This document shows, one piece after another, positions 37,422 through 40,219 of a stretch of 55,130 nt of DNA; within the stretch, counting starts at the first letter, position 1, and each line of letters opens with the position of its first letter. The DNA comes from Pseudodesulfovibrio pelocollis. Lineage in GTDB: Bacteria; Desulfobacterota; Desulfovibrionia; Desulfovibrionales; Desulfovibrionaceae. Under the pieces are notes generated by a model. The model ran no database searches and was not told the DNA's origin. It saw only the letters and a program-made list of their open reading frames with translations. The translations under genes were made by a program, and so were the position numbers. The DNA lies in the NCBI RefSeq assembly GCF_030282845.1, contig NZ_JASTWE010000024.1, positions 1 to 55,130 of the forward strand, read 5' to 3'.

Positions 37422-38726
37422 ATGCCGTGCAGAACCATTGAATACACCGGCCCGCAGGACTGGGCCGACATCGCCGTCTGGCTCGACCAGCGCAAGGATC
37501 CTGACACCCAAGTGGACGGGCTTGTCCGCGACATCCTCACCGAGGTAAAGGAGCGGGGCGACGACGCCCTGGTCACATACACCCGCAAGTTCGACTGCCC
37601 GGACTTCAACGCCTCCCACCTGCGCGTCCCGGCCGATGCCATTGCCACGGCCCTGGACCAGCTGCCCCGCGACGACGTGGCCATCCTCGAAGAGGCCATC
37701 ATGCGGGTGCGCGACTTCCATGCCAACCAGAAGGAGAATTCCTGGTGGACCGCCAGCCCGGACGGCACGATCCTCGGCCAGATGGTTCGCCCGGTGGACC
37801 GCGTGGGCCTCTATGTGCCCGGCGGCCAGGGCGGCGAAACCCCGCTCATCTCCAGCCTGATCATGAACGCCATTCCGGCTCAGGTGGCCGGGGTGCAGTC
37901 CATCGCCGTGACCTCGCCCCCACGGGCCGATGCCACCCTCAATCTCTACATCCTGGGCACCGCCGCCCTGCTCGGCCTGGATGAAATCCATCTGGCCGGA
38001 TCGGCCTGGGCCATCGGCGCGCTGGCCTACGGCACCCGGACCATCGCCCCGTGCGACATGCTGGCCGGGCCGGGCAACATCTTCGTGGCCACGGCCAAAT
38101 CCCAGCTCATCGGTCAGGTGGGCATCGACATGGTGGCCGGGCCCAGCGAGATCGTCATCCTGGCCGACGCTTCGGCCAATCCCGCATGGCTGGCGGCGGA
38201 CATGCTCTCCCAGGCCGAGCACGACCCGCTGGCCGCCTCCATCCTGGTCACGCCGGACACTGCCCTGGCCCAGGCGGTGCGCCACGAGTTGGCCACCCAA
38301 TGCGCCGCCCTGCCGCGCGGCGAGATCGCGGCCAAGTCCCTTGAAGCCTGGGGCGCGGTGATCACCGTGCCCGACCTTGATACGGGCATCGACCTGATCA
38401 ACCGGCTGGCCGCCGAGCATCTGGAACTGGCTTTGGCCGACCCCTGGGCCGTGCTCGGAGCCATCCGCCACGCCGGGGCCATCTTCATGGGCCATACCTC
38501 GCCCGAGCCGGTGGGCGACTACTTTGCCGGACCCAACCATGTCCTGCCCACCCTGCGCACCGTGCGCTTTTCCTCGGCCCTGTCCGTGCAGAACTTCTGC
38601 AAGAAATCAAGCATCATCGCCACCACACCGGGCTATGTGGCCGAACACGGGCACAAGATCGCCCGGCTGGCCCGGCTGGAAGGCCTCGAAGCCCACGCCC
38701 GCAGCGTGGAATGCCGCACCAAGTAG
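37422..38726 (+). CDS. hisD: Histidinol dehydrogenase
   Basis: HisD carries out the last two steps of histidine synthesis, oxidising L-histidinol to L-histidine with NAD in the cytoplasm. The sequence shows the family signature around IDMVAGPSEIVILADASANP, the zinc and catalytic residues in SQAEHDPLA, AEHLEL in the C-terminal part and GPNHVLPTLRTVRFSSALS. The ATG at 37422 gives 434 aa, the normal length; a longer in-frame start at 37350 would add a Pro/Ala-rich extension. purC follows 26 bases later. Confidence 0.95.
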   Translation: MPCRTIEYTGPQDWADIAVWLDQRKDPDTQVDGLVRDILTEVKERGDDALVTYTRKFDCPDFNASHLRVPADAIATALDQLPRDDVAILEEAIMRVRDFHANQKENSWWTASPDGTILGQMVRPVDRVGLYVPGGQGGETPLISSLIMNAIPAQVAGVQSIAVTSPPRADATLNLYILGTAALLGLDEIHLAGSAWAIGALAYGTRTIAPCDMLAGPGNIFVATAKSQLIGQVGIDMVAGPSEIVILADASANPAWLAADMLSQAEHDPLAASILVTPDTALAQAVRHELATQCAALPRGEIAAKSLEAWGAVITVPDLDTGIDLINRLAAEHLELALADPWAVLGAIRHAGAIFMGHTSPEPVGDYFAGPNHVLPTLRTVRFSSALSVQNFCKKSSIIATTPGYVAEHGHKIARLARLEGLEAHARSVECRTK

Positions 38727-38752
38727 TCATTACATTTAAGAGAGGGAAGAAC

Positions 38753-39649
38753 ATGGCCGCCGTAATGGAAACCGACTTGAAGGAATACCCGCGCATCTCC
38801 CGGGGCAAGGTCCGCGACATCTACGAGATCGACGCCGATACCCTGCTCATCGTGACCACGGACCGCATCTCGGCCTTTGACGTGGTCATGCCCGATCCCA
38901 TCGAGGACAAGGGCAAGGTGCTCAACCAGATCACCCTGTTCTGGATGGACATGATGGGCGACCTGATGCCCAACCACATCATCGCCACGGACGTGAACGA
39001 CTTCCCCGAACCCCTGCGCGCCCACGCCGACGCCCTGCGCGGCCGCAGCCTGCTGGCCAGAAGGGCCAAGCCCCTGCCCGTCGAATGCATCGTGCGCGGC
39101 TTCATCACCGGCTCGGGCTGGAAGGACTACCAGAAGACCGGACAGGTCTGCGGCCACGCCCTGCCCGCCGGGCTCAGGGAATCCGAGATGCTTGAAACCC
39201 CGCTCTTCACCCCCTCCACCAAGGCGGAGCTGGGCGACCACGACGAGAACATCACCCTTGAGCAGGCGGCCGCCCTCATCGGCGAGGAGATGATGCGCAA
39301 GGTCGAGGGGCTGGCCATCGCCATCTACGCCCGCGCGCGCGACTACGCCCGCCAGCGCGGCATCATCATCGCGGACACCAAGTTCGAGTTCGGCATGGTC
39401 GGTGATCAGCTCATCCTCATCGACGAGGTGCTGACCCCGGATTCGTCGCGCTTCTGGCCCGTGGAGGGCTACGAGCCGGGCCGCTCCCAGCCCAGCTTCG
39501 ACAAACAGTATTTTCGCGACTGGCTGGAGGAGACCGGCTTCAACAAGCAGCCGCCCGCCCCGCGTGTGCCCGCCGACATCGCCGCGCGCACCCGGGCCAA
39601 GTACATGGAAGCCTATGCCCTGCTCACGGGCAGAACCCTCGAAATCTAG
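38753..39649 (+). CDS. purC: SAICAR synthetase
   Basis: PurC joins CAIR and aspartate with ATP in purine synthesis. Typical motifs are seen: RGKVRDIYEIDADTLLIVTTDRISAFDVVMPDPI at the N-terminus, RRAKPLPVECIVRGFITGSGW, and DTKFEFGMVGDQLILIDEVLTPDSSRFW near the C-terminus. The length of 298 aa is the longer bacterial type. The ATG at 38753 follows GAGGGA. It is followed 9 bases later by the small TGA-interrupted ORF, which probably shares its transcript. Confidence 0.95.
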   Translation: MAAVMETDLKEYPRISRGKVRDIYEIDADTLLIVTTDRISAFDVVMPDPIEDKGKVLNQITLFWMDMMGDLMPNHIIATDVNDFPEPLRAHADALRGRSLLARRAKPLPVECIVRGFITGSGWKDYQKTGQVCGHALPAGLRESEMLETPLFTPSTKAELGDHDENITLEQAAALIGEEMMRKVEGLAIAIYARARDYARQRGIIIADTKFEFGMVGDQLILIDEVLTPDSSRFWPVEGYEPGRSQPSFDKQYFRDWLEETGFNKQPPAPRVPADIAARTRAKYMEAYALLTGRTLEI

Positions 39650-39658
39650 GAGGCGGCC

Positions 39659-39823
39659 ATGGCAGACTGGCTCCATCTCATTGGACTGATAATCCTCGGA
39701 CTGGCCATCGGCCACTTCCTGCGTTCCAGATTCCGCGGCGGCTGAGGCCCCCGCTCAAGCTGCGGCTGGAAGCCGCCGACCAAGGACGCCGACACCGACA
39801 AGGACAAGCCCGACACCAAGTAG
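39659..39823 (+). CDS. Candidate small membrane selenoprotein (in-frame TGA at codon 29), 54 aa
   Basis: AGGAGG lies 5 bases before the ATG. Residues 1-28 are one hydrophobic span (DWLHLIGLIILGLAIGHFL) and a basic end (RSRFRGG). Codon 29 is TGA (39743-39745). The same frame then runs 25 codons to TAG, with a CG motif (S-S-C35-G) and a Lys/Asp-rich tail; 24 of these 25 codons end in G or C. A hairpin with 6-base arms and loop GGA lies 22 bases downstream. The layout recalls FeoB-associated Cys-rich membrane proteins with a Cys at the TGA position. Alternatives: a 28-residue protein ending at TGA, or a recent Cys-to-stop mutation. Function unknown. Confidence 0.5.
39762..39776 (+). promoter_or_regulatory. 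Candidate bacterial SECIS hairpin
   Basis: GCGGCT (39762-39767) pairs with AGCCGC (39771-39776) around the loop GGA. The loop starts 22 bases after the TGA, inside the usual distance for bacterial SECIS elements, and its first two bases are GG, as is common for that element. A bulged U is not evident, so the call is tentative. Confidence 0.4.
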
Positions 39824-39838
39824 CGAGCCGGGCCATGC

Positions 39839-39867
39839 TTGACAGCGGCCGGGAATGCAACTATACA
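39839..39867 (+). promoter_or_regulatory. rpsF operon promoter
   Basis: A consensus -35 TTGACA (39839-39844), an exact 17-base spacer and TATACA (39862-39867) form one of the best sigma-70 promoters in the window. It starts 15 bases after the stop of the small ORF and serves rpsF-rpsR-rplI-dnaB. Confidence 0.8.
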
Positions 39868-39884
39868 TCCCCTCTTGCCTTGCT

Positions 39885-39910
39885 CTCCCCGCCGTTGGGG
39901 AGGGCCAACG
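39885..39910 (+). promoter_or_regulatory. Putative S6:S18 ribosomal protein leader
   Basis: Two overlapping stems can form: CTCCCC/GGGGAG (39885-39890, 39897-39902) and CGTTGG/CCAACG (39893-39898, 39905-39910). The sequence CCG, the hallmark of leaders bound by the S6:S18 pair, is present at 39892-39894. Position just before rpsF and rpsR fits autoregulation. The match to the leader family is by eye only. Confidence 0.4.
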
Positions 39911-39928
39911 ACCAAAAGGAGTAACACA

Positions 39929-40219
39929 ATGGCTACCAACTACGAGACGCTCGTGCTTCTCTCTCCCGAGTTGGCTGAGGAGAACAGGAAGGAAATCCTG
40001 ACACTTCTCACCACCGTGGTGGAGCGCGAAGGCGGCAGCATGGTTGAAACCGATGACTGGGGTCTGCGCACCCTTGCCTATCCGGTCCAGAAACAGACCC
40101 GCGGATACTATGTGCGACTGGTCTACGACGCCCCGGGCAACCTGGTGGCGGAACTGGAACGCAACATCCGCATCACCGACGGCATCTTCAAGTTCATGAC
40201 CGTCAAACTGGCCGCCTAG
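39929..40219 (+). CDS. rpsF: 30S ribosomal protein S6
   Basis: S6 binds the platform of the small subunit as a pair with S18. The sequence begins MATNYETLVLLSPEL and has the ferredoxin-like pattern with WGLRTLAYPVQKQTRGYYVRLVYDAPGNLVAELERNIRI. The length of 96 aa is normal. The ATG at 39929 has AAAGGAG upstream. It is the first gene of the S6-S18-L9-DnaB operon, with rpsR 12 bases downstream. Confidence 0.97.
   Translation: MATNYETLVLLSPELAEENRKEILTLLTTVVEREGGSMVETDDWGLRTLAYPVQKQTRGYYVRLVYDAPGNLVAELERNIRITDGIFKFMTVKLAA

Follow-up and report, generated by a model that had tools for sequence, protein, structure and literature searches.

The window studied is the whole stretch of 55,130 nucleotides of contig NZ_JASTWE010000024.1 from Pseudodesulfovibrio pelocollis. 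Located in it is a small open frame on the forward strand, between two genes that we take to be purC and rpsF (names given by an earlier, sequence-only reading of this DNA). The frame starts with ATG at 39659, has an in-frame TGA at 39743-39745 as codon 29 and finishes with a TAG stop at 39821-39823. There are 25 sense codons between the TGA and the TAG, and 24 of them end in G or C. The features are the following:

38711..39649, forward strand: upstream gene purC, a conserved neighbour in the genus; its stop lies 9 bases before the ATG of the selenoprotein gene
39648..39653, forward strand: Shine-Dalgarno sequence AGGAGG, overlapping the stop codon of purC
39659..39823, forward strand: predicted selenoprotein gene, 54 sense codons including Sec (codon 29), then TAG
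39665..39721, forward strand: predicted transmembrane helix, residues 3-21 (Kyte-Doolittle 19-residue maximum 1.76)
39743..39745, forward strand: predicted UGA selenocysteine codon, residue 29 (from the sequence and the comparison of loci)
39761..39763, forward strand: partner cysteine codon, Cys35 of the putative Sec/Cys pair (from the alignment of relatives)
39762..39776, forward strand: candidate bacterial SECIS hairpin GCGGCU-GGA-AGCCGC, -8.7 kcal/mol, loop 22 nt after the UGA
39929..40219, forward strand: downstream gene rpsF (position from the list of open reading frames)

The sequence-only reading had described a Shine-Dalgarno, an in-frame TGA at codon 29, an open frame downstream and a hydrophobic N-terminus, and all of them are present in the sequence. 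The hairpin that it placed after the TGA also exists, but the 22 bases given for its start are the distance to the loop, the 5' arm starting 16 bases after the TGA. As detailed below, 39659..39823 is almost certainly a selenoprotein gene with Sec at the UGA of codon 29. The coding and SECIS assignments rest on comparative evidence, and the insertion of Sec is predicted.

The UGA position in relatives and in databases

We searched the genus with the 54-residue frame in which Cys had been written for the TGA. Despite the Cys in the queries, the aligned codon was TGA in all 30 loci fetched and in four further ones (34 of 34 matched). A profile search gave a match in 34 of the 36 genomes of the genus, the two others being drafts that are 81-82% complete. 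Most of the 30 loci share the motif GG-U-GP-x(2-4)-CGW-(T/K)-P, with variants in L020, L025, L026, L027 and L030; in L027 the Cys after the Sec is absent and there is a Cys directly before it instead (GCUGPAAGGW). Among 12 close pairs, hand-picked and some of them sharing members, 36 of the 54 substitutions in the tail were found at third positions, and the codon changes were synonymous in 29 cases and non-synonymous in 18.

At the class level 94 of 348 genomes matched at E 0.01 or better, of which only part were read. Specifically, 60 regions were fetched, seven were dropped and the 53 kept all had the TGA. In a sample of the phylum 175 of 395 genomes matched (E up to 0.01, some of them weakly), and 39 of the 40 regions fetched and read had the TGA, the other one (L174) being a Cys-rich protein with an unrelated tail. 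Dropped before counting were L174 and three more proteins of this kind without TGA (L117, L119 and L120, which are the class-level matches without a stop that were read), two doubtful loci (L123, L124) and two spurious ones (L125, L126).

For an unbiased view, named genomes were scanned with the pattern N[RK]W[IV][LF]P[KR][LM]G, located wholly upstream of the Sec region. The scan confirmed 118 loci and 80 were kept; 79 of these had TGA, in every case exactly seven codons past the proline, and only one, L216 from Planctomycetales, had TGC. Besides Desulfobacterota in the wide sense, the taxa recovered included eleven Planctomycetota, three Spirochaetes and a bin labelled 'Chloroflexi' (L205). 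The protein of L205 is nearly identical to those of the Desulfuromonadaceae records L208 and L210, so that it probably represents a mis-binned contig. Within the Planctomycetota 42 of 392 genomes matched the family, and the 30 loci read out of these 42 had TGA in 21 cases and Cys in nine. The UGA form occurs in Desulfobacterota (wide sense) and in part of the Planctomycetota and Spirochaetes; other Planctomycetota have the Cys form. Besides, directly after the main gene some genomes carry a second tandem gene of this kind, which has an in-frame TGA too (L067, L078, L070 and L092). The second copy in L071, L080, L083 and L102 looks degenerate, or else the TGA or the Cys is missing from it.

Full-length database proteins have Cys at the Sec position, typically within LNRW(I/V)LPxxGxxT-C-MSGxC. 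In the first set of 35 database proteins that we read, 21 had Cys, five had Trp and nine ended just before the position. Trp was the residue in P0040, P0043, P0049, P0050 and P0055, presumably because the source translated the TGA under another genetic code. All 122 full-length proteins checked had Cys, 121 by pattern and one on sight; they comprise 103 new ones, taken from the 120 shown out of 1340, plus 19 of the 21 earlier Cys forms, P0044 and P0129 being excluded. When we looked at the 35 database proteins closest to the product of 39659..39823, 33 were only 28-30 residues long, and the five of these that were read all terminate right before the Sec position. This is what the sequence-only reading had predicted, namely that gene callers would cut the gene at the TGA or miss it. 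Homologues with TGA and with Cys at codon 29, for which it had proposed a search, were both found, and the downstream frame is retained in the relatives. Two properties by which a bacterial selenoprotein is recognised are therefore found in this family, namely a UGA whose place is conserved and which is flanked on either side by coding sequence, and homologues that have Cys there.

Selenocysteine machinery and the hairpin after the UGA

A third such property is the presence of selA, selB, selC and selD in the same genome. The genome of P. pelocollis has a tRNA-Sec scoring 82.3 bits with the model RF01852, SelB (374 bits), SelA (613 bits) and SelD (323 bits), so that the check for selA, selB and selC suggested earlier came out positive, with selD in addition. 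The gene of this SelD (G000:C73:6726-7655, L285) contains one in-frame TGA and probably codes for a selenoprotein itself.

The TGA form goes together with the machinery. In the Planctomycetota a tRNA-Sec of at least 59 bits, a limit chosen after the scores were seen, was present in 25 of the 30 genomes with the TGA form and in one of the 12 without the stop (Fisher p 1.0e-5); at the family cut-off the figures were 25 of 30 and three of 12 (p 6e-4). The sole planctomycete without the stop that reached 59 bits had just a weak 26-residue match to the family. Among 20 named genomes, a tRNA-Sec of at least 64 bits was found in 16 of the 19 with TGA, and one over the cut-off of 47 in 17 of the 19; the genome of the Cys form L216 scored 46.0 against this same cut-off. 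The genomes that have TGA and no tRNA-Sec over the limit (5 of 30 planctomycetes and 3 of 19 named genomes) are drafts.

According to a recent review (PMC13188914), a bacterial SECIS has an apical loop of 3-9 nt located 16-37 nt after the UGA, a G in the first two loop positions, a stem of at least 4 pairs and an MFE of -7.5 or lower. The hairpin at 39762..39776 conforms to these rules (loop GGA, 22 nt, 6 bp, -8.7 kcal/mol). However, from this locus alone it would be unconvincing. When 39740-39795 is folded freely, a different pairing is favoured and the fold does not outdo those of shuffled sequences (z 0.77), and a test of the energy against synonymous recodings gave no significance for 39659..39823 by itself (p 0.26). 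A search of 39500-40000 with Rfam gave two matches, both far below their cut-offs.

It is the comparative evidence that lifts the hairpin above chance. Of 209 distinct UGA sequences, 178 have a conforming hairpin after the TGA, whereas among synonymous recodings the share is 17-35%, depending on the group; this count requires a perfect stem, a G in the first two loop positions and a limit of -4 kcal/mol, which is our own and laxer than the published -7.5. The other 31 loci have no conforming perfect stem at -4 kcal/mol. Energies after the UGA were below the synonymous mean in 187 of the 209 loci, with group mean z values from -0.9 to -1.4 compared with -0.27 in an upstream control. Taken locus by locus the test is weak: the median rank p of the hairpin test was 0.05-0.15 by group, and p 0.05 in the energy test was reached at 50 of 209 loci against 21 of 208 in the upstream control.

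Codon usage also shows a synonymous constraint at the hairpin. In the 27 genus loci with CGW, the codons within the hairpin are nearly fixed (GGC in 26, the next variable codon G-ending in all 27, CCG in 26), while the Pro codon past the hairpin is free (CCG 7, CCT 8, CCC 10, CCA 1, and one Lys). Different groups have different types, GCGGC-UGGAC-GCCGC, GCUGC-AGUUG-GCAGC, GCUUCCG-CGUGA-CGGAAGC and GUGCGGU-GUC-ACCGCAC. In 12 planctomycete loci with the last of these or a near form, one stem pair is T-A in seven and C-G in five, and never mixed; this covarying pair joins a silent change in the Cys codon to a replacement of His by Arg. In one branch with the type GCUGC-AGUUG-GCAGC (for example L072, L074 and L086) the hairpin lies earlier by one codon, measured from the partner Cys codon, than in L001-L030. 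The Cys form of Planctomycetales bacterium 71-10 (L216 / L255) retains a SECIS hairpin of the type GUGCGGU-GUC-ACCGCAC or its near form, GUGCGGUGUCACCGCAC, although no clear tRNA-Sec was found in its genome; this looks like a recent Sec-to-Cys change.

The earlier proposal of a TGA that encodes Sec, followed by a SECIS and belonging to a membrane protein, is thus supported by the TGA in 34 of 34 genus loci and 79 of 80 loci of the upstream-pattern scan, by the association with tRNA-Sec and by the 178 hairpins in 209 loci. The UGA could still be an ordinary stop that ends a 28-residue membrane peptide, in which case the conservation downstream would belong to an RNA element or an untranslated remnant. 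The gene calls of the source do terminate at the UGA, and the hairpin of this locus is not significant by itself. But Cys homologues continue through the position with the same motif, the frame of the tail is kept with changes mainly at third positions and the TGA form accompanies tRNA-Sec, which makes this explanation highly improbable. A decoding of the UGA that does without Sec, either as a different amino acid (Trp) or through leaky readthrough, has in its favour the W of five of 35 database proteins, taken here as a reading of TGA in another code, and we give it next to no weight, given that the loci read and kept have TGA or Cys and never a Trp encoded by TGG, that a SECIS-type hairpin is present and that there is an association with tRNA-Sec.

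Topology, neighbours and possible role

If the gene is expressed as a selenoprotein, SelB with Sec-tRNA would bind the hairpin 3' of the UGA and selenocysteine would be inserted at codon 29, giving a 54-residue protein. In its predicted layout a short N-terminus leads into a single transmembrane helix; a basic juxtamembrane stretch comes next, followed by the Sec and, six residues later, by a partner Cys. In 183 of 203 rows of the aligned family the flank on the C-side of the helix exceeds the N-side one in basic character; the two are equal in 19 rows and the order is reversed in one, so the Sec-bearing tail should be cytoplasmic. The first Cys after the Sec is found 5, 6 or 7 residues on in 196 of 204 rows. 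In both sets of row counts some genomes appear twice, and second tandem copies as well as the L216 terminal TGA are counted too. In L157 the partner Cys is absent, and L163 has no near Cys. The Sec/Cys pair would then be placed within a charged, probably flexible, tail on the side of the cytoplasm.

The neighbours differ among groups. In all 30 genus loci hisD and purC are located upstream and rpsR, rplI and dnaB downstream, an order also seen in several other genera. Elsewhere in Desulfobacterota, away from the purC arrangement, the neighbours are mixed. The commonest upstream are histidine kinases, with 19 of 96 ORFs, and downstream D-Ala-D-Ala carboxypeptidases, with 16 of 95. As for sulfur metabolism, among those 96 upstream ORFs we detected one Sulf_transp (L135) and two NrfD (within the first 25 of 83 families). 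In the Planctomycetota the 68 flanking ORFs include ten with rhodanese, eight with a metallo-beta-lactamase fold and five flavin disulfide reductases; beside the Cys forms (18 of these ORFs) the numbers were six, six and five. We read these planctomycete neighbours as a fusion of persulfide dioxygenase-like and rhodanese parts plus a type III sulfide:quinone reductase, the NCBIfam matches being below cut-off. By sequence, the fusion flanks seven Cys forms, several of them close relatives (L216, L257, L260, L263, L264, L265 and L268), and it is likewise in the flanks of three Sec forms, L201, L233 and L256. Five of those seven Cys forms also have the reductase nearby, as does, in part, L256. 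For the Cys forms L267 and L270 the sequence search found neither fusion nor reductase.

Since some planctomycete copies are near genes for persulfide dioxygenase-rhodanese and sulfide:quinone reductase, we tentatively suggest that the Sec/Cys pair may act as a membrane-tethered relay of redox equivalents or sulfane sulfur. It would hand persulfide or electrons between a membrane enzyme, for example sulfide:quinone reductase, and soluble partners such as rhodanese or persulfide dioxygenase. The link to sulfur rests on some planctomycete loci, because in Desulfobacterota the gene is surrounded by housekeeping genes or a mixed set, in which there is little sign of sulfur metabolism. A broader version, somewhat more doubtful, is that this is a founding family of bacterial single-pass membrane selenoproteins, present across much of Desulfobacterota and reaching into Planctomycetota and Spirochaetes, that serves as a general sulfide-handling device. 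In it a membrane-tethered selenol/thiol pair might take sulfane sulfur from sulfide:quinone reductase or a similar enzyme and deliver it to rhodanese and persulfide dioxygenase, and lineages that lost the Sec machinery would have Cys in place of Sec.

Other roles of a selenoprotein have to be weighed against this relay. One, short of probable though worth serious thought, is that the Sec/Cys pair binds a metal or metalloid (such as mercury, arsenic or zinc) or reduces peroxide. According to PMC13188914, about 20% of families have predicted ligands, and about 70% of those are metals or metal-derived. Among the upstream ORFs in Desulfobacterota there are MerR-type regulators (4 of 96) and cation-efflux proteins (2 of 96), and the upstream ORF of L277 is a rubrerythrin gene. 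Yet no metal-transport neighbour is frequent among the families listed, and the recurrent planctomycete neighbours are instead rhodanese, a metallo-beta-lactamase fold of the persulfide dioxygenase type and sulfide:quinone reductase. It is rather unlikely that the protein serves to tether a partner enzyme to the membrane or to help assemble it, using its Sec for a mixed selenide-sulfide bond and not for turnover. Such a role would suit a tiny protein with one helix and a short charged tail, and the eukaryotic SelK and SelS are small single-pass selenoproteins of a like type; a first Cys placed 5-7 residues past the Sec in 196 of 204 rows suggests a redox pair instead.

Comparison with described systems

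We compared 18 proteins (the product of 39659..39823, eight UGA forms and nine Cys forms) with Pfam and NCBIfam and none was above any cut-off; for the small protein the domain scans gave neither a rhodanese nor a flavin domain. The kinship with small FeoB-associated membrane proteins put forward by the sequence-only reading finds no support. The product of 39659..39823 has no Pfam hit, and one of eight relatives reached 14.5 bits with FeoB_associated (PF12669), whose gathering cut-off is 27. The gene sits between hisD-purC and rpsR-rplI-dnaB, with no feoB in the flanks read; FeoB_N matches 5 of 95 downstream ORFs of distant relatives, and the match shown is a 216-residue GTPase that fits MMR_HSR1 better. 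FeoB_associated proteins are also small, with one N-terminal helix and a tail containing Gly and Cys, but the family described here has one conserved Sec/Cys pair and not a Cys-rich tail.

With the SelB-dependent bacterial selenoproteins (PMC13188914) the family shares the in-frame UGA, a SECIS within the published spacing, the Cys homologues and the Sec machinery. This 2026 review tabulates 119 prokaryotic selenoprotein families. We did not recognise ours among these 119 entries, none of which is described as a single-pass membrane protein of about 50 residues (some are 'hypothetical', with their architecture unstated), and the terms transmembrane, UxxxxC and CxxxxU are absent from the review. 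Nor was it recognised among the nine families of PMC12013277. One of these, the hypothetical protein DG (NF049953), which is also a hypothetical entry of the review, was tried as a candidate and rejected; its model has 172 positions and its sole match in the genome is below the cut-off and elsewhere than 39659..39823. Literature searches, with passages of PMC8318568, showed no earlier report of the family among the papers that they listed; most subscription papers, for example the 2007 selenoproteome of the Olavius symbiont, were outside its reach. Because no Pfam or NCBIfam cut-off was reached, the family was recognised in neither of those two sets and no earlier report was found, we call it a new selenoprotein family, with an architecture new for bacteria within the literature covered.

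The genes of sulfide oxidation (sulfide:quinone reductase, persulfide dioxygenase-rhodanese and membrane rhodanese of the YgaP type) flank some planctomycete members, and no rhodanese or flavin domain was found in the small protein. A testable link between selenium and the handling of sulfide or persulfide is offered by the family. In layout it may resemble the eukaryotic selenoproteins K and S, which are small single-pass membrane proteins with the Sec in a flexible, Gly-rich cytoplasmic tail. In these the Sec is near the extreme C-terminus, whereas here it comes directly after the helix, and the resemblance is likely convergent.

The family is large and uncatalogued, very probably encodes a selenium-containing membrane protein and has overlooked relatives in many bacteria, from sulfate reducers to planctomycetes. 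In databases it mostly appears as truncated proteins some 29 residues long that have no Pfam domain. It contains several SECIS types, includes in L216 a Sec-to-Cys change that still has the hairpin, and adds a single-pass membrane architecture to the bacterial selenoproteins.
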